A program made the translations under genes and the position numbers. This document shows, in pieces, positions 2,074 through 33,102 of a DNA stretch of 36,781 nucleotides (position 1 is its first letter; each line of letters begins with the position of its first letter). Where the stretch lies: assembly GCA_018830225.1 (NCBI GenBank), contig JAHJSS010000019.1, positions 1 through 36,781 of the forward strand, read 5' to 3'. The notes beneath the pieces were generated by a model. The model did no database searches. It was not told where the DNA came from and saw nothing but the letters and a program-made list of their open reading frames with translations. This DNA comes from Nanobdellota archaeon. GTDB taxonomy: Archaea > Nanobdellota > Nanobdellia > Woesearchaeales > UBA11576.

Positions 2074-2558
2074 CCAAACCCGAATACCCTCAGCTTCAGC
2101 AACAGCAGGCGTTCTTTGACACGATAATAGACAGACTCGACAGGATCGAAAGTGTCAGGAGCGGCCTCAAACTTCAGCGAGACCCCCATATGAGAGTAAA
2201 GTCTCTTAAAAATGTATCTTGTCCTTGGCATGTGGTGCTCTGAAGTCACGACAGTGATGTTCTTCGGCTTCTTTTCCTTGAGCAGCTCCCAGCAGAACAC
2301 AGCATTATGGACTGTGTCGCGCGAGTGTCGCTCGAGAAGTATCTTCTCATGCGGGATGAAGTTCAGCAGCATCACGCGCATTACCACAGACTCGGGCACC
2401 CTGTATCTGGCAGGCCCTCCGCTGAGCAAGACCTTTGAGTAGTTGTTCTTCCTGTAGAGCTGGACCGCCTTCCTGACGCGTGCAATCATGCAGTCACTGG
2501 GCCTGCCGTCAGGCCTGGGCGAGCAGCCGAGCACTATCAGCACATTCTTGAAGCTCAT
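2070..2558 (-). CDS. DUF218 / YdcF-SanA-like family protein
   Basis: VLIVLGCSPRPDGRPSDCMIARVRKAVQLYRK...VLLSGGPARYRVPESVVM...ERHSRDTVHNAVFCWELL...ITVVTSEHHMPRTRYIF. Confidence 0.85.
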   Translation of the reverse strand: MSFKNVLIVLGCSPRPDGRPSDCMIARVRKAVQLYRKNNYSKVLLSGGPARYRVPESVVMRVMLLNFIPHEKILLERHSRDTVHNAVFCWELLKEKKPKNITVVTSEHHMPRTRYIFKRLYSHMGVSLKFEAAPDTFDPVESVYYRVKERLLLLKLRVFGFG

Positions 2559-3412
2559 CTTATAAGCCCCATCAAGTCAGAGAGCATCTTCTCATCGTAG
2601 GCTATCAGCGGAGTCAAGAGCGCTGTCTTGATATCGCCATACTTGTCTAGCTCAAAATCCTCAAATCTGTCTCCTACAACCACCGCCCTACAATTGTTTT
2701 TTTCGGCGAAGCCGTCAATATCTGAGAGAGCATTTATTTGTGTGAATCTTATGTCGTAACCGTAACTGAATCTCATCAAAGAATCAATATATTTTTCTTT
2801 TCTACCCAGCGGAAAAACAATACAACCTCTCTTCATCATGAGCCAGGCAGCGGCGAGGGACTTCTCGTCTTCTATCAGGCAAACAACATTTCCTGTGATC
2901 CCGACAGGCAGGCCGCCGAAGCAGGGGATGGTCTTGTGAAAGATGAATGTTTTTTCATGGATCTCGACGCCGACATCAAGGTCAGCACCCTTCATCTTTG
3001 CTTTTAGATTGAACGTGTTGCCGACAGCATCGCCAAGGAAGATATCTGTCTCATTAGAAGACTTTGGAAACTTCTTGTTTGTCCTTTTGGTTGAGATGCG
3101 GAAGGTGGTGGGTTTTTCGTGTTTTACAACACTACCAGCATAATCAATAACTTTCTCTTTTATGGCATCTGGCAAGCTTTCAACGACGACAGCCGGGCTT
3201 AGAGAGACCAGGCCAAAGACATTTTTCAGTGAAGAAACCGCAGCAGAATCAGAAGTGTAGACAAATATCCTCCCCCTGACCTTCTTGATCTCAGCGGTTA
3301 TGCTGTTCTTATTGAGGCAGTCGCGCAGGTTATATACCAGCCTGTCCTCGAACATGAAGCGGTTCTTGCCCTTCAAGGCCAGCTCGCCATAACGGCAGAT
3401 AATGCAATCCAT
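2555..3412 (-). CDS. ThiI-like THUMP protein with degenerate PP-loop (tRNA 4-thiouridine sulfurtransferase homologue)
   Basis: N-terminus MDCIICRYGELALKGKNRFMFEDRLVYNLRDCL is ThiI NFLD-like, followed by a THUMP domain. GLPVGITGNVVCLIEDEKSLAAAWLMMKRGC aligns to the ThiI PP-loop region but lacks SGGxDS. Start placed at the internal Met (track ORF begins at 3436). Confidence 0.8.
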   Translation of the reverse strand: MDCIICRYGELALKGKNRFMFEDRLVYNLRDCLNKNSITAEIKKVRGRIFVYTSDSAAVSSLKNVFGLVSLSPAVVVESLPDAIKEKVIDYAGSVVKHEKPTTFRISTKRTNKKFPKSSNETDIFLGDAVGNTFNLKAKMKGADLDVGVEIHEKTFIFHKTIPCFGGLPVGITGNVVCLIEDEKSLAAAWLMMKRGCIVFPLGRKEKYIDSLMRFSYGYDIRFTQINALSDIDGFAEKNNCRAVVVGDRFEDFELDKYGDIKTALLTPLIAYDEKMLSDLMGLIR

Positions 3413-3467: not shown

Positions 3468-3599
3468 GCGGCGCCGCGTGAAGCTCGGCGTTCGTGATAT
3501 TTGGTGCGGTCTGACATCCCCGTAAGGGACGTCCCCCTGTCAGAATATAATATTTAGTCTAAGCGCCTGCGCACATTCACGGCGGCGCCGCGTGAAGCT
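3468..3599. repeat. Intergenic element bounded by 18-bp perfect direct repeats GCGGCGCCGCGTGAAGCT
   Basis: Copies at 3468-3485 and 3582-3599; between them an inverted repeat TCTGACA (3510-3516)/TGTCAGA (3538-3544). Confidence 0.85.
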
Positions 3600-3969
3600 A
3601 AGCGTGCTTCTCCTTGTAGTCCTTTATAGCTGCTTTCAGCGCATCTATGCCGAGGATAGAGCAATGTATCTTCAGCTGGGGAAGCTCTCCGCCAAGATAG
3701 TCTATCACATCCTGCTTGGTCAGTTTCATAGCATCATCAACAGTCTTGCCCTTCACGATCGCGCAGACAGCGTCTGACGCAGCAATAGCAGCACAGCAGC
3801 CGAAAGTCAGGAACTTAGCCTCCTTGATTATCCCTTTCTCGACCTTGATATAAACTTTCATGACATCACCACAAGCGGTATTGCCTACCTCGCCGATGCC
3901 GTTCGCCTTCTTCAGCTCCCCGGCATTCTTCGGATTCCTGAAATGCTCCATCACTTTCTTAGAGTACAT
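3598..3969 (-). CDS. iscU: Fe-S cluster assembly scaffold IscU/NifU-N
   Basis: YSKKVMEHFRNPKNAGEL...GNTACGDVMKVYIKV...FLTFGCCAAIAASDAV...LPQLKIHCSILGIDALKAAI: the three conserved cysteines are present. Confidence 0.93.
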   Translation of the reverse strand: MYSKKVMEHFRNPKNAGELKKANGIGEVGNTACGDVMKVYIKVEKGIIKEAKFLTFGCCAAIAASDAVCAIVKGKTVDDAMKLTKQDVIDYLGGELPQLKIHCSILGIDALKAAIKDYKEKHA

Positions 3970-5128
3970 CCTTCAACACCCTCTTCAGAGGACTTATCTT
4001 CCTCAGCTTCTCGACATACTTCTTCAGACTGCCTATCGTGTAGTCTATCTCCTCTTCTGTCGTGAAACGGCTCAAAGTCATGCGCAGGGTCCCGTTCGCA
4101 AGACCCTTGTCAAGGCCTATCGCAAGAAGGACATGGCTTGGCTCCAAAGAATGTGAAGAGCACGCGCTGCCTGTCGAGGTGCATATCCCGCTCACGTCAA
4201 GATAGGAGCCAAGGGCCTCTCCCTCTACATTGGCAAAAGCGATGTTCACGTTGTTGCAAAGCCTTTTCTCACCGCGCGGACCGTTAAGCTTCACGTCATG
4301 AATCTCTTTCTCGATGCCTGAAATCAGCCGATCCCTCAACTTCGCAATCCTTTTCGCATCAGAATCTGAAGAGAGCTTCACTGCCTTGGCAAAACCCATT
4401 ATTCCAGGCACGTTCTCAGTGCCTGCACGCAGCTTGAACTCGTGCGCACCTCCGTGCTGGATGCTTGCCATCTTCGTGCCTTTCCTGACGTACAATGCAC
4501 CGACTCCTTTCGGACCGTGGATCTTGTGAGAAGACATGGATATAAGGTCTACAGGAACCTTCTTCGCGTTTATAGGAACCTTTGTGAAGCTCTGCACCGC
4601 ATCTGTGTGAAACATGACTCCGTGCTCCCTGCATATATTCCCTATCTTCTCCAGCGGCTGTATAGTCCCTATCTCGTTGTTTCCGTGGATGATTGATACA
4701 AGGAGCGTCTTCGGAGTGATAGCCTTCCTGAGATCATCGAGAATGACAAACCCTTCATTATCCACCCCCAGATACTTAATCTCGAACCCCTCTTTCTCCA
4801 ATGCCTTGCAGGTATTCAACACAGCAGGATGCTCTATCTTTGTGGTTATGATGTGATTGCCTTTATCCCTGTTGGCATAAGCAACCCCTTTGATAGCAAG
4901 ATTGTCAGACTCTGTCCCGCCAGAGGTGAATATTATCTCATCATATCCTGCATTGAGCTTCTTCGCAACATCCTCCCTGGCCTCTGTCAGGTAGCGCTTA
5001 GCCTCCTGCCCCTTCTGGTGTATGCTTGAAGGATTCCCATAAACATCACTGAAGAAAGGGAGCATCTCCTTGACCACTGCTGGATCGACCATTGTTGTAG
5101 CGCCGTTATCAAGATATATTTTCTTCAT
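3959..5128 (-). CDS. iscS: Cysteine desulfurase IscS/NifS
   Basis: MKKIYLDNGATTMVDPAVV...SSHKIHGPKGVGALYVRKG...CTSTGSACSSHSLEPSHVLLAIGL. Start placed at MKKIYLDNG (5128); the track ORF begins at 5155. Confidence 0.95.
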   Translation of the reverse strand: MKKIYLDNGATTMVDPAVVKEMLPFFSDVYGNPSSIHQKGQEAKRYLTEAREDVAKKLNAGYDEIIFTSGGTESDNLAIKGVAYANRDKGNHIITTKIEHPAVLNTCKALEKEGFEIKYLGVDNEGFVILDDLRKAITPKTLLVSIIHGNNEIGTIQPLEKIGNICREHGVMFHTDAVQSFTKVPINAKKVPVDLISMSSHKIHGPKGVGALYVRKGTKMASIQHGGAHEFKLRAGTENVPGIMGFAKAVKLSSDSDAKRIAKLRDRLISGIEKEIHDVKLNGPRGEKRLCNNVNIAFANVEGEALGSYLDVSGICTSTGSACSSHSLEPSHVLLAIGLDKGLANGTLRMTLSRFTTEEEIDYTIGSLKKYVEKLRKISPLKRVLKDVL

Positions 5129-5685
5129 TTTAATCCTTCCTTGCAGATATTGCAATTTTCAGGTATTATTTTATGTTTTCTATACTCTGAACATTCTTCT
5201 ATTTCGTTCCGAAACTCGCAATAACTTTTTTTATTCCATTGCTTTCTTTTATCAATTGTTTCCCTTAAAAGAGCTATTTTAAATAACCCTTCTTTTGTTA
5301 GATGCTCTTTTCTTTCCATTAAGTTTATACATTTTTTCCATGCTAAAAACTCCGCTTTCTTCGAGTTTGAAACAAAGTCCATATCATTCAGCAAATCGAC
5401 AATTTTCTTTGCTTCTTGAAGTTTTGTCACTTTAAAAGCAACACAATCTCTTGCGTTGGTTAGTCCTTTTTTTCTGCTTGATTTTGAACTTTGAAAATAG
5501 ATATGGCCTATACCCCCAAGGTATTCTCTTATTTTTTCAAGAACCTCTCTTTCGGATTCAGTTAGTTTTATAGTAAAATCCGCTACCACCTGCTTCGAGT
5601 TTCCAGTTTTACCGCTTTTTTTGATGACTATACAAAAACAGCCTTCTCCTTCTATAAATCCGAGTAACCAACGTATATCCATCAT
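5125..5685 (-). CDS. Free-standing LAGLIDADG-type homing endonuclease
   Basis: N-terminal RWLLGFIEGEGCFCIVI matches the LAGLIDADG helix pattern; 186 aa, single motif; its stop overlaps the nifS start (ATGA). Confidence 0.85.
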   Translation of the reverse strand: MMDIRWLLGFIEGEGCFCIVIKKSGKTGNSKQVVADFTIKLTESEREVLEKIREYLGGIGHIYFQSSKSSRKKGLTNARDCVAFKVTKLQEAKKIVDLLNDMDFVSNSKKAEFLAWKKCINLMERKEHLTKEGLFKIALLRETIDKRKQWNKKSYCEFRNEIEECSEYRKHKIIPENCNICKEGLK

Positions 5686-5723: not shown

Positions 5724-5756
5724 CTTAATATGATCCGCCGCATCCAGAGGTTAAAT

Positions 5757-9277: not shown

Positions 9278-9423
9278 GGGGCTGTAGTATAACCTGGCTA
9301 GAATAGCTGGCTCCAGTCTTGGAGCGATGAGGCAATCTGCCGATGATTAAGGTGTCTGGTATGCCAAGACGTTGCTCTTGAGGAAGATACCAGCGGATCT
9401 GGGTTCAAATCCCAGCAGCCCCA
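9278..9423 (+). tRNA. trnW: tRNA-Trp (CCA anticodon) with a long anticodon-loop intron
   Basis: Acceptor GGGGCTG (9278-9284)/CAGCCCC (9416-9422); T-arm CTGGG TTCAAAT CCCAG (9399-9415); anticodon stem GCTGG (9306-9310)/CCAGC (9390-9394); loop CT-CCA-G then intron. 3' CCA not encoded. The D-stem is weak. Confidence 0.9.
9317..9388 (+). other. Predicted 72-nt tRNA-Trp intron at the canonical 37/38 position
   Basis: Removing 9317-9388 restores the 7-nt loop CTCCAGA between the anticodon-stem halves. A complete BHB motif was not established by hand. Confidence 0.7.
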
Positions 9424-12669: not shown

Positions 12670-15600
12670 ATGGTAATAGCCAGCCCAGATATGCAAAGAT
12701 ACTTCGACGAACTCCAGCGCAAGTGCAAGGAAGCGCACGACATAGCTACAGCAGCGAGGAAAAAAGGATATGACCCTGACGACTGCGTAGAGGTCCAGCT
12801 GGCATCTAACATGGCAGAGAGGGTTGTAGGCCTCATATCTGTCGTCGCTCCGCAGATAATCGGCAGCGGCGTCGTAGAGCGAATAATAGAGCTGGAACAG
12901 CAGTATGGCGTACTCGACTGGAGGGTAGCGCTGCAGATCGCACTAGAGGTCGCACAGGAGAAATTCTGCAAGTTCAAGGACAAAAAAGAGGCCATAGAGG
13001 TCGGCGTAAGGGTCGGGTTCGCCTATGGCACTGTCGGAGTGGTCAGCAGCCCGATAGAAGGATTGATATCAATAGACATAAAGAACAGAAGAGACGGAAA
13101 AGGAGAATACTTCTGCCTGAACTACGGCGGCCCGGTAAGGAATGCGGGCGGCACAGCTGCATCATGGTCTGTCATAATAGCGGACTATGTCCGGAAGAAC
13201 ACAGGATACGCAGTGTACGACCCAGACGAGAACGAAATAAAAAGATGCGCCACAGAAATCGAAGACTATCACGAAAGGGTCACAAACCTCCAATATTTCC
13301 CTTCAAAAGCGGAATCAGAGTTCATGATCAGGAATCTCCCTGTGGAGGTATCCGGAGACGCGTCAGAAGACATAGAAGTATCCAACTACAAGGACATCTC
13401 GAGGATACCCACCAACAAGATCAGGAGCGGATACTGCCTCATACACTCTAGCTGCATACCCTTGAAGGCAGAGAAGCTCTGGAAACAGCTCTCCAAGTGG
13501 GGAAAGGACTTTGGTATGGACCACTGGTCTTTCCTGGAGGAGTTCATAAAGATAAAGAAAGAGGCCCACGCAAAAGGGAAAGGGGCGAAGAAACAGCAGA
13601 CTGACGACGACAAGCATAAAGTGACCCCTGACTTCACGTACATCAAGGACCTCGTTGCAGGGAGGCCTGTTCTCGCGCACCCGCTGCGCACAGGAGGATT
13701 CAGGCTGAGATACGGCAGGAGCAGGACATCAGGATATTCTGCGCAATCAATCCATCCGGCATCCATGCACGTGATGAACAACTTCATAGCGACAGGAACT
13801 CAGCTCAAGGTTGAGAGGCCTGGAAAAGGGGCCGCGTTCACGCCATGCGACACCATAGAAGGCCCTGTCGTGAAGCTCAAAGACGGCAGCGTAGTCAGGC
13901 TTGACACAGAGCAGCAGGCAAAGGAAGTCAAGAAAGAAGTGATAGAAGTGCTGTTCTTAGGCGATGCTCTCATAAACTACGGCGACTTCCTCAACAGGAA
14001 TCACCTGCTGGTGCCGCCGGGATACTGCGAAGAATGGTGGATGAAAGAACTTGAGAAGAAGACGGTCTCCATATTCGGCAGCCTTGACACGTACAAGCTC
14101 GCAGAGATAACAGGGGCCAAACCACAGGAACTTGAGAGGATATTCAAGAAGCCGCTTAGGGATAAGCCGAACGCAAAGACCGCGCTGAACATAGCAAGAT
14201 CAACAAAGACGCCGCTCCACCCAAAGCACACATACTTCTGGAACGCAATAGACAAGACAGAGCTGATGCCTCTTGTTGATTGGCTCCACACGATGAGGAT
14301 AGAGACCGACGACGACGGCATAACAAAGGCGGTCCTGCAGAACAACAAGGAACAGAAAAGGGTGCTTGAAAGGATAGGGATACCACACATACTGGCGAGC
14401 AACGAGTTTGTCGTCTTCAGGAAAGATGAAGCGACCATACTCGAAGAGCTGCTGAAGATAGGATCCGAGAATGCGGAAGAAGTGAAGAACTGCCTCCAGA
14501 AGATAATCTCCGACGAAAAAACAAAAGACACCTTAGACGCACTCAACAGGCACTCAAACATAAGCCAAAGGGACAAATGCGGGATATTCATAGGGGCCAG
14601 GATGGGAAGGCCAGAAAAGGCAAAGATGCGCAAACTTACCGGCAGTCCACACGTCCTTTTCCCTGTTGGCGAGGAAGGGGGCAGGATGAGATCATTCCAG
14701 TCAGCGCTCACAGCAGGCAAGATAACAGCAGAGTTCCCGACATACAAATGCGAAAAATGCGGAAAAGAAACCATCTTTAGCGTATGCCTTGAATGCGAAA
14801 AGAAAGCGAAGAAGCAATACCACTGCAAGATATGCGGAACAATCGAGACAGACACCTGCCCGAAGCACGGGAAGACGACACCATACGTAAGAAGGGAGAT
14901 ACCGATAAACACCTACTTCGAGAACCTGCTGAGGAAGATGAAGACAAAGACATACCCTGACCTGATAAAAGGCGTCAGAGGCACCAGCAACAGGGAACAC
15001 ATACCAGAGCACCTCATGAAAGGCATACTCAGGGCGCAGAACAACGTCTATGTGAACAAAGAAGGCACGGTCAGGTATGACTGCTCAGAGCTCCCGATAA
15101 CGCACCTCAAGCCGAAAGAGATAGGCACAAGCATAGAACAGCTCAAGGAGATGGGTTACGACAAGGACACCAGAGGAAGGCCGCTCGAGAACGAAGAGCA
15201 GACGCTGGAACTTAAGCCCCAGGACGTGGTGATACCCTGCTGCCCGGACTCCCCTGACGAGCCCGCAGACGCAGTCCTTTTCAGGACCACAAAATTCGTC
15301 GATGACGAGCTTGAGATGCTCTACGGCCTGAAACCTTTCTATAAACTGCAGACAAAAGAGGATCTTGCAGGCCACCTGATAATAGGCCTTGCGCCCCACA
15401 CATCAGCAGGAACTATAGGGCGGATAATAGGCTTCTCCAAGACCCAAGGATTCTTCGCGCACCCCCTCATGCACGCGGCGATGCGCAGAGACTGTGATGG
15501 CGATGAGAGCTGCTTCATACTCCTGCTCGACGCATTCCTCAATTTCTCACGCAAATACCTGCCAGACTCAAGAGGAAGCACGATGGACGCTCCGCTTGTG

Positions 15601-29679: not shown

Positions 29680-32600
29680 CTAAATCTTCTGGATGAATCC
29701 TCTTTTCGGCTCGAAGATGTCTCCAGCCCTCTTCAGCTTTTCGATGACCTCCTCTGCCTTGTCTGCAGAGACTCCCTTATCCTGTGATTCCCTGATGACA
29801 TCCTCTACAGGGATGGTCTTGCCTATCTTGTTCTCCAGGTCATTTATGACCTCCTTTATCACGATGATATGGCTCCTTGCAGAGGATGATACGCCCGTCG
29901 TGAGCACGTCAACATCAATCTTCCCGGTGTCAGGGTCGATGCCGATCTGCGACATGCAGAAATGAAGCAGCTCAATAGCCTTCCTCGAGTCCCTCTTGGT
30001 GACCTTGTCAGAAAGCCTTGACCTGGCCGACGCTTCAGCAAGCCTCACAAGCCCCTCAAGCTGCCTCGCAGTGATAGGGATTGCCTTGATGCCGCCTTCC
30101 TCACCGCCAGAACCGCGCATCTTAACATAATATGCTTTTATTTCCTCCATAGCACCGTCGGTAAGCTTCGGCACACAGTTCCTCCGCGCATAGGCTATGT
30201 ACTTCCTGAGCATGTCAGTCTCAATGTCGCACGTACCTGCATCGCTGGTCTGGTGGAGATTCAGGACAAAGCCTGCAAGCTTCTCATCGTGCTCCCTGTT
30301 CGGCAAATCCCTTATAGGAAAAATAAGATCGAACCTGCTGATGAGCGCGGGAGGAAGATCAATCTGCTTGCCAAGGATCTCGTAAGGATCGAACCTGCCC
30401 CACTTAGGGTTGGCTGCCGCAAGGACAGTGGTCTCGCACCGAAGAGTGGCCTGGATATTGGCCTTAGAGATAGAGACTGTCTGCTGCTCAAGCGCTTCGT
30501 GCATCGCATCCCTATCCTCCTTGCTCATCTTGTCCATCTCATCAATCATGCAGAACCCCTTATTGGCAAGGACCAGCGCTCCTGCCTCCAAAGCCCAGCC
30601 GCGGAGGAACTCATCCCTAACTACAGCAGCAGTAAGGCCTGCACCTGAAGCACCCTTGCCGGACACGTACCTCGACTTAGGGGCGATGAGCTGAGCACGC
30701 TTGATAAGCTGAGAGTTATGGACAATTATAGCATTAGAGACAAAGTTGTGAGTATTGTCCACCTGAATATCATAGACGTATTCGCCGTCATTATCAATCT
30801 CTTCCTTGCTCGCCACAGCATCCCAGAAAACATCGCTCTCGGCAGCTCCCTTAAGCAGTCCAATCTCAAAGCCATCTATGCTGCGTGAATCCATTTCATC
30901 CACAATCTGCTTTAAATGGCCGAAGGAAGGGTTCCTGTCACCTTTTTCGTAATGCTGATAACTCGAACGGGATATTCCGAAATCGAACTGTGAAAGACCA
31001 TGCTTGAGACGTACGAAACGCAGGATTTCCTTCAACCCCGGAACCACCCTTATGTTGGTGTTAAACACCCTATCCATAGCCATGACTGCATCCAGCTGGC
31101 CCGTCTTATCTTTAGAGAAGAATCCTATCTTCTGGCCATATGCAATAACATCCACACCAGAAATACGCAGTTCGTAGTAATCCCTGACAATCTTCGCGGC
31201 TGTGTTGGTGGCGCACTTCCTCTTCTGCGACAGGGTGGATATAACCCCGAAACGAAGCAGCGCAATCTTCACATCCTCAATAAGATCCCTGCTCTTTGAA
31301 ACGAGCTCTATCTGCCGACGCCCTTTCCTGACATGCGCATCACACTCGAACAGCGCCCTCAAAAACTCCCGCATCACAAACTCAGGAGACCTGTTCACTG
31401 CTTGAGGAATTGTTTTTCCAGCAGATTTCAAGTACAGCCTGCTGTCGATCTTCTCCAGGAGACGAGCAAACTCTATACTCGTCGTGTAAGCCTCTTCAGC
31501 GCTCTTCCCTGAATGCGGGCGCCTGCGCGTAACGCGAACACCAAACTTATCCTCAAGAATCCTCTTGAAGTCAGACAGAACCGCCTCATTGTTGTTGGTA
31601 AGAGAGACGAATGCCCCTTTCTCCTTAAGCCTGAGCCAGCCGTCACCAACAAGATAGCCCAACACCCTAGCAATCTCCCCGTCGATGTGGTGAGGTATCC
31701 TGATGCTGACCTTACTACCCCCCCTCGACCTCAAAAAGTCCGTCGGACACGGCTGCATAGCGCTCTGAGTGACTATCTTTGAAGGAGACGCTATGAAATC
31801 ACCTTCCTTCATCTCCTCTGCAGCCTTAGGCACAATAAAACCATTATTTGCCGTAAAGAAAGGATGGTTCTTAGTGACGACAATGCTGTTACCTGTCTTG
31901 GTCCTAATCTTCAGAAGCCTATCTTCCTTCCGCCTCCATACAACCCTAGATGTATTAGAACCCGCTTTTGCATTCTCATCAAATGAAACTACATTGAAAG
32001 GGTCAGAACAGGCATAGCCCCCGTCTCCTAGCAGCTTACCCATCCTACAATCAACAAGTTCACCTACTCTGACAATTGAGCCGTCGGATAAAACCAATTT
32101 GGAGTCCTTATGCAAGCACTTCCCTGCGCCCGGGTCGCCCACAAGAAGGATGTGCATGTCACCCCTAGTGACAACCCCATCGGTCCGCACCTTCCGCACA
32201 CCTCCAAGAAGCTGGAGGATTATAGCCTCCTTGACCTTGTCATGGCCGTATATCGACGGAGCCATGGAATTCACCAGCTTGTTGAGTATCTTCGGGTCCC
32301 TCGAGAGCTCAATTATCTTCTTCTCCTCTTCTTCTTTGATAGTTATGTCGCCGAAGCTCTCCTCCAGAGGCTCCACAAAATTCGAGTCTATCATGAGGTC
32401 AAACCTAACAAGCTTTCCGCCATCCTTCGAAGGGATGGGAACCTCCTTAACCTGGCCGACGACATGCACCTTTGTCCCGGGGTTGGTCTTCTTGTCGCTC
32501 AGAGTAGAGACGAGGTCGTTCTTCAGGAAGATGTCAATCCTCTTCGGCTGGTCACCACCCTCAAGATTCTCAGGAATCTCCTCAAGGACAATCTTCTGAG

Positions 32601-33102
32601 CATCGACAAGCTCCTTAGATACCAGCCTGAACTTGCCCTTCCTGCCGCACCCGCACCTGCTCGGCTCCTTGAACTTGGCCTCAAGCTGGATGACAGACAT
32701 GATATTGCCGCAGCTGGGGCACTCGAACCTCGCAGTCGTCACCTGAGGCCTGACATCAGACTTCTGACGGACAAGACCATTGAGGCAGATCAGCCTGTCT
32801 ATGTTCAGGCTCCTTATGTCCCTTATCTTTATCTCCTGGCTCTTAGGGATGTTCTTGAAACGGACAAAGAACCTGGTCACTGATTCAGGGACATCAAGGT
32901 TCTTGATGGCAATCTCGAACGCCTTCATGACCTCCTCAGGCTGGTCGAGGAGAAGATCTGCGAGCTCAGGATCGAACTTAGAAAGATCGACGAAGTCAAT
33001 GACCATGAAATTATTTCCGAGACTAACTGCCTCAAGAAGCTGAACATGGTAGTCCTGCTCGATGAAGTGCTCAAACCTCTTTATCTGTTCTGATACATCC
33101 AT
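29680..33102 (-). CDS. mcm: Replicative helicase MCM, interrupted by an intein
   Basis: Exteins contain the MCM zinc finger CPSCGNIM...CGCGRKG, GDPGAGK/SQLIKRAQLIAPKSRYVSGKGASGAGLTA, MIDEMDKM and RFDLIF motifs. 1140 aa including a 468-aa intein. Confidence 0.97.
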   Translation of the reverse strand: MDVSEQIKRFEHFIEQDYHVQLLEAVSLGNNFMVIDFVDLSKFDPELADLLLDQPEEVMKAFEIAIKNLDVPESVTRFFVRFKNIPKSQEIKIRDIRSLNIDRLICLNGLVRQKSDVRPQVTTARFECPSCGNIMSVIQLEAKFKEPSRCGCGRKGKFRLVSKELVDAQKIVLEEIPENLEGGDQPKRIDIFLKNDLVSTLSDKKTNPGTKVHVVGQVKEVPIPSKDGGKLVRFDLMIDSNFVEPLEESFGDITIKEEEEKKIIELSRDPKILNKLVNSMAPSIYGHDKVKEAIILQLLGGVRKVRTDGVVTRGDMHILLVGDPGAGKCLHKDSKLVLSDGSIVRVGELVDCRMGKLLGDGGYACSDPFNVVSFDENAKAGSNTSRVVWRRKEDRLLKIRTKTGNSIVVTKNHPFFTANNGFIVPKAAEEMKEGDFIASPSKIVTQSAMQPCPTDFLRSRGGSKVSIRIPHHIDGEIARVLGYLVGDGWLRLKEKGAFVSLTNNNEAVLSDFKRILEDKFGVRVTRRRPHSGKSAEEAYTTSIEFARLLEKIDSRLYLKSAGKTIPQAVNRSPEFVMREFLRALFECDAHVRKGRRQIELVSKSRDLIEDVKIALLRFGVISTLSQKRKCATNTAAKIVRDYYELRISGVDVIAYGQKIGFFSKDKTGQLDAVMAMDRVFNTNIRVVPGLKEILRFVRLKHGLSQFDFGISRSSYQHYEKGDRNPSFGHLKQIVDEMDSRSIDGFEIGLLKGAAESDVFWDAVASKEEIDNDGEYVYDIQVDNTHNFVSNAIIVHNSQLIKRAQLIAPKSRYVSGKGASGAGLTAAVVRDEFLRGWALEAGALVLANKGFCMIDEMDKMSKEDRDAMHEALEQQTVSISKANIQATLRCETTVLAAANPKWGRFDPYEILGKQIDLPPALISRFDLIFPIRDLPNREHDEKLAGFVLNLHQTSDAGTCDIETDMLRKYIAYARRNCVPKLTDGAMEEIKAYYVKMRGSGGEEGGIKAIPITARQLEGLVRLAEASARSRLSDKVTKRDSRKAIELLHFCMSQIGIDPDTGKIDVDVLTTGVSSSARSHIIVIKEVINDLENKIGKTIPVEDVIRESQDKGVSADKAEEVIEKLKRAGDIFEPKRGFIQKI
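30715..32118 (-). other. Intein in the MCM Walker A motif with LAGLIDADG endonuclease and HTH segments
   Basis: Starts at Cys after GDPGAGK (CLHKDSKLVLSDGS), block B VVTKNHPFF, LAGLIDADG-like VLGYLVGDGWL and FLRALFECDAHV, ends DNTHNFVSNAIIVHN before Ser. 1404 nt = 468 codons in frame. Confidence 0.95.

Follow-up and report, generated by a model that had tools for sequence, protein, structure and literature searches.

The window analysed here is the whole 36,781-nucleotide stretch of DNA from a Nanobdellota archaeon. Near its beginning lies a run of genes on the minus strand that encodes a NifS/IscS-type cysteine desulfurase (3959-5155; 531.6 bits, over the cut-off of TIGR03402), a NifU/IscU-type Fe-S scaffold protein (3598-3969; NifU_N 150.5 bits, and TIGR03419 166 bits, below cut-off), a THUMP protein of 285 amino acids (2555-3412, with its ATG at 3412), a DUF218 protein (2070-2558) and RNase P subunit p30 (1465-2073). 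The first-pass annotation had placed the THUMP gene in an operon with cysteine desulfurase and IscU, and both genes do lie upstream of it in the same operon. The DUF218 gene, which overlaps the end of the THUMP gene, is an operon neighbor that is probably outside the system discussed below, and the p30 gene is a conserved neighbor of genes of this type and of some ordinary thiI genes. Between nifU and the THUMP gene lies an 18-base direct repeat (GCGGCGCCGCGTGAAGCT; 3468-3485 and 3582-3599, 114 bases apart), the second copy of which overlaps the nifU stop codon. Just upstream of nifS, a 186-amino-acid open reading frame (5125-5685, minus strand) resembles, by eye, a LAGLIDADG-type endonuclease (WLLGFIEGEGCF). 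Elsewhere in the window, an MCM-like helicase gene (29680-33102, minus strand) appears by eye to contain an intein (CLHKDSKLVLSDGS ... VHNS), and a tRNA gene match with a span of 146 bases (9278-9423, plus strand), probably intron-containing, adjoins replication genes (Orc1/Cdc6-like and PolD subunits, by eye).

In its ordinary form, ThiI acts as a homodimer: the N-terminal ferredoxin-like domain (NFLD) and THUMP domain of one subunit grip the acceptor stem and CCA end of the tRNA, and U8 is thereby offered to the PP-loop domain of the partner subunit. A single ThiI chain starts with NFLD and then THUMP, and both domains, reported earlier as conserved, are intact in the window protein: ThiI_fer at residues 4-72 (3197-3403; Pfam PF22025, 70.3 bits) and THUMP at residues 82-155 (2948-3169; Pfam PF02926, 33.5 bits). 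Sequence comparison and a structure model show that residues 171-285 (2558-2902) form a degenerate and truncated PP-loop (AANH) domain. The ThiI PP-loop domain of Pfam scored 14.4 bits against a cut-off of 20.5, with only its first 30 positions matched, and the ThiI equivalog TIGR00342 (NCBIfam) scored 136.3 bits, under its cut-off of 264.5. At the place of the ThiI motif SGGxDS, the protein has EDEKS (EDE-KS; residues 181-185, 2858-2872) within residues 178-196, CLIEDEKSLAAAWLMMKRG, and at the place of the dimer-interface (DI) loop LGQVASQT it has FEDFELDKYGDIK (residues 250-262, 2627-2665). Both substitutions had been noticed before, and both were located in the protein, the PP-loop site reading LIEDEKSLAAAWLMMKRG and the DI-loop site DRFEDFELDKYGDIK, as was the retained PLIAYDEK. 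Beyond the first-pass annotation, we found that the domain is truncated as well as devoid of its motif. What remains is beta1-alpha1-beta2 together with the end of the core, a remnant whose entire length can be aligned to ThiI in structure comparison, but nothing is left of the C-terminal part, where ThiI has its CxxC and catalytic Cys344 (numbered as in E. coli and T. maritima). The window protein therefore does not qualify as a ThiI of the single-chain kind, having neither SGGxDS nor the DI loop with Cys344 (or CxxC and a further cysteine), and what the evidence supports is half of a ThiI.

The closest known relative of the window protein is PH1313 of Pyrococcus horikoshii, which gave both the best sequence match (E 3.4e-31) and the best fold match to the AlphaFold2 model (Z 31.6, rmsd 2.2 over 284 residues), a model with a pLDDT of 91.9. 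In PH1313 the PP-loop is likewise lost (ILHDELSALAIFLMMKRG) and the domain truncated in the same way, so that the two proteins share an NFLD-THUMP part, a shortened PP-loop domain without SGGxDS and the 1VBK fold; PH1313 differs in that, as far as read here, its gene is not in a nifS operon. The structure of PH1313 (PDB 1VBK) was reportedly solved in 2005 without an assigned function. The protein crystallized as a dimer, and it has been called 'ThiI-like', with several conserved residues missing and its activity unconfirmed (PMC9957541). The ThiI enzymes of T. maritima (4KR6/4KR7) and B. anthracis (2C5S) have the NFLD, THUMP and PP-loop core fold in common with the window protein, and 4KR7 matched the model over residues 4-331 of 388 (Z 27.0). 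We refer to short THUMP pseudoenzymes of this PH1313-like kind as S, to stand-alone PP-loop domains as A, and to fused (ordinary) ThiI as F.

Among the sequences compared, the PP-loop and DI loop were present in none of 46 S, in 44 of 44 F and in 47 of 47 A proteins. The earlier proposal that catalysis was selectively lost, leaving a THUMP pseudoenzyme, is borne out by this absence in every S-type orthologue, including those of the same genus and the same family, in none of which an intact SGGxDS was found. An isolated mutation or sequencing error is ruled out, since the loss is common to all 46 short homologues. In place of the motif, an acidic pattern, ED[EK]-xS, recurs among S proteins without being universal (SGP-NS in Thermococcus, others elsewhere). 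Residues of the NFLD-THUMP part are invariant across S, which has been kept in dozens of families, and the ThiI/TtuI features retained include Lys17, Arg21 and the THUMP residues. The window protein residue equivalent to T. maritima ThiI Lys17 is Lys14 (codon 3371-3373, minus strand), a lysine found without exception in the S-type (46 of 46) and fused (44 of 44) proteins. In close pairs of S genes, the dN/dS of the dead domain is about 0.20-0.27, similar to that of the NFLD-THUMP part, and on these values together with the conserved fold, decay of a ThiI was rejected.

With SGGxDS, the DI loop, CxxC and Cys344 all missing from the window protein, catalysis would have to sit in a second protein. 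The earlier suggestion of a second catalytic ThiI proved right in part: the genome does hold a catalytic partner, which is a stand-alone PP-loop domain and not a second full ThiI. The one strong match to PF02568 (192 bits) is an intact domain of 208 amino acids on contig C52 (~14684-15310) that carries SSGIDS, LGQVASQT, CVLC (the CxxC) and a further CC, and no RNA-binding domain; fused ThiI is absent from the genome. Two other PF02568 matches, on contigs C21 (20.9 bits) and C39 (15.3 bits, TtuA-like), were rejected as partners, being weak and found in genomes with fused ThiI too. The A protein scored 190 bits against ThiI TIGR00342 and 188 bits against NF006222/PRK08349, a family named 'hypothetical protein' with no assigned function to which thermococcal A belongs (325 bits vs a cut-off of 251), and which we propose here as the catalytic subunit. 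The gene adjoining A on contig C52 (L005:9305-9685) encodes a domain of about 90 amino acids that in relatives forms the C-terminus of a ThiF/E1-like protein. This adjoining gene also occurs in L059, L060, L062, L064, L071 and L100, and the domain stands free here and in L073, L086, L088 and L195. More generally, the gene before A often encodes an E1-like ThiF protein or just the C-terminal piece of one, and a sulfur-relay link of the ThiF/E1-derived domain is possible.

The distribution of S and A was followed in 118 relatives of the same order as the source genome, an order whose named members are 'Candidatus Woesearchaeota'. Of these relatives, 31 have S and 23 fused ThiI. The A gene was found in 28 of the 31 S genomes vs none of the 23 F genomes (Fisher 2e-12). 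Across a phylum sample of 279 genomes, S occurs in 76 and A in 79, with both in 70, and only one of the 55 genomes with F also has A (Fisher 3.5e-48); these P values count genomes as independent and ignore kinship, and the repeated origin described below weighs more. That one genome (G312) has S as well and so holds all three, a combination that could reflect either contamination or a genuine transition. Five genomes (G071, G117, G233, G305 and G343; L096, L099) have a fused ThiI of 480-500 amino acids with about 100 extra C-terminal residues. Eight sampled genomes have S without A and eleven have A without S. In six A-only relatives, an S profile picked up no convincing hidden S; its THUMP matches there were all weak and probably belong to tRNA methyltransferases. 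RNase P p30, the neighbor of S, is missing from five of the first six A-only relatives vs present in 27 of the 31 S genomes, which suggests, without proving it, that the absence of S from A-only genomes reflects assembly gaps and missing contigs.

It could be that S is a decaying ThiI that persists by inertia and that A, which has all the catalytic motifs that S has lost along with its PP-loop, DI loop and cysteines, is by itself a full 4-thiouridine (s4U) synthetase. This is highly improbable, as A without S is rare, S is maintained across dozens of families with invariant residues in its NFLD-THUMP part, and the dead domain has a confidently modeled fold and a dN/dS like that of the rest of the protein. 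Furthermore, T. maritima ThiI requires its THUMP-CCA ruler to find U8 (PMC4041423).

The pairing of S with A arose more than once. In a tree of the NFLD-THUMP part, S as a single clade was rejected (AU p 3e-10), and the S of Thermococcus (L115, L116) is nested within Thermococcus F. In a tree of the PP-loop domain, 37 DPANN A proteins form one clade (100/99), while the A of two other DPANN genomes (G033 and G137) falls within the DPANN F branch and that of L115 and L116 beside Thermococcus F. With A genes of different ancestry and a polyphyletic S, the pair must have been assembled at least three times, and the PH1313-type S of the thermococcal genomes and the S of DPANN did not come from one step. 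The two genes are mostly unlinked in DPANN genomes; in L116, the stop codon of S (5739-5741) and the GTG start codon of A (5738-5740) overlap as GTGA.

Thermococcaceae (61 genomes) appear to preserve several stages of this process. Wherever a PH1313 orthologue occurs (53 genomes), so does the A gene, often directly downstream of it; 50 of these A genes are intact and 3 are partial or interrupted. Of the eight genomes without an orthologue, two have A. Two Thermococcus genomes (G400, G415) have an A that looks interrupted and lies next to a full-length PH1313 orthologue. Ten of the orthologues are S-type; all ten are accompanied by A, and seven of the ten genomes have no other fused ThiI. One of these seven is P. 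horikoshii, represented by G382, which holds PH1313 at 100% identity, a single A and no fused ThiI, and hence is a genome of that species. The full-length Thermococcus orthologues of PH1313 have kept SGGIDS but not the catalytic cysteine, which is missing from 32 of 32 and present in 29 of 29 Thermococcaceae A proteins with a readable end. Some members of the genus have a second type of fused ThiI, with its cysteines intact, and A is absent from four of the five genomes that have only that type. The order of events reads as acquisition of the partner, followed by loss of the cysteine and then of the PP-loop.

We conclude that the THUMP protein of the window is very probably the subunit that binds tRNA in a two-protein 4-thiouridine (s4U8) synthetase. 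Once a separate catalytic domain had been found, the adapter role that the first-pass annotation thought plausible could be sharpened to this one. In T. maritima ThiI, the RNA is held by the NFLD and THUMP domains of one subunit so that U8 lies at the active site of its partner, into which Lys17 of the NFLD also reaches, and dimerization occurs mainly through the PP-loop domains (PMC4041423). As the homodimer already divides tRNA holding and catalysis between its subunits, a pair of S and A requires no new geometry. The S protein, with its NFLD-THUMP part and dead PP-loop-domain remnant, would hold the tRNA, while A would bind ATP, adenylate U8 and transfer sulfur. We infer a physical S:A complex and its stoichiometry from this arrangement, in which the dead domain of S would most likely sit where the partner sat in the former dimer interface and Lys14 of S would act in trans at the active site of A. 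The sulfur would probably start from the NifS encoded beside S. The expected product, s4U, is present in the tRNA of T. kodakarensis (PMC11323500). At about 17 loci, S has nifS as its neighbor, often together with nifU. To our knowledge, s4U has been measured in no DPANN archaeon.

The location of S in nifS-nifU operons at these loci, usually far from A, would also be expected if S were a tRNA adapter for a different enzyme, such as the partner of a Tan1/THUMPD1-like acetyltransferase, or for the NifS/NifU operon, with A a separate thiolase that has its own RNA recognition and the co-occurrence of the two secondary. THUMP adapters for acetyltransferases do exist (PMC12255305). Adapters of the Tan1/THUMPD1 type, however, are THUMP proteins without a PP-loop remnant, whereas the window protein has both ThiI_fer and the remnant. 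This role is unlikely given that S and A are gained and lost jointly, replacing fused ThiI, that the pairing arose independently from A genes of differing ancestry, that A lacks any RNA-binding domain of its own, and that S retains the ThiI-specific Lys14, which is meaningful only beside a PP-loop active site. Least probable of all is that S is active alone by other chemistry, at a non-canonical nucleotide site, and that A serves, for example, in thiamine sulfur transfer. The conserved region with its recurrent acidic pattern could be read in that way, and a review has considered that the Pyrococcus ThiI homologues may have separate roles (PMC9957541), but S has neither a conserved cysteine nor a motif for phosphate binding, and some S proteins lack the acidic pattern.

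Beyond the tRNA-binding role of the window gene, we lean, with modest conviction, towards a wider reading: in archaea, ThiI homodimers have repeatedly given way to obligate heteromers that pair a THUMP pseudoenzyme with a stand-alone PP-loop subunit; in these, the dead domain would hold the dimer-interface seat and the active-site lysine would be lent in trans. Such heteromers would be the usual s4U8 synthetase of Pyrococcus and of DPANN archaea with s4U genes, and Thermococcus would represent a half-way stage, with a full-length partner that has kept the PP-loop and lost the catalytic cysteine. In eukaryotes, both Ctu1/Ctu2 (Ncs6/Ncs2) and ADAT2/ADAT3 are homodimeric tRNA enzymes turned into heteromers of a catalytic subunit and a diverged subunit that orients the tRNA. 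By analogy, the closest precedent is Ctu1/Ctu2, which like ThiI belongs to the PP-loop superfamily and has been explained as an archaeal homodimeric thiolase that became a heteromer, with one subunit retained for orienting tRNA (PMC10067955). These eukaryotic pairs act on a different base (U34, as opposed to U8), belong to other families and arose by full gene duplication, whereas the pair of S and A is archaeal and split at the level of domains. No description of a split ThiI was found in the literature that we searched, a scope outside which lie He et al. 2022 (archaeal TtuI) and Liu et al. 2012.

If this reading is correct, it would provide a function for PH1313 and for a family of stand-alone PP-loop proteins now named 'hypothetical protein', and it would correct annotation pipelines that overlook both halves or name one or the other 'ThiI'. 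With the tRNA-binding and catalytic halves available as separate proteins, the two-subunit logic of the enzyme could be tested directly. It would also mean that archaea can repeatedly make a catalytic subunit and a pseudoenzyme partner out of a symmetric tRNA enzyme, as happened in eukaryotes with Ctu1/Ctu2 and ADAT2/ADAT3.
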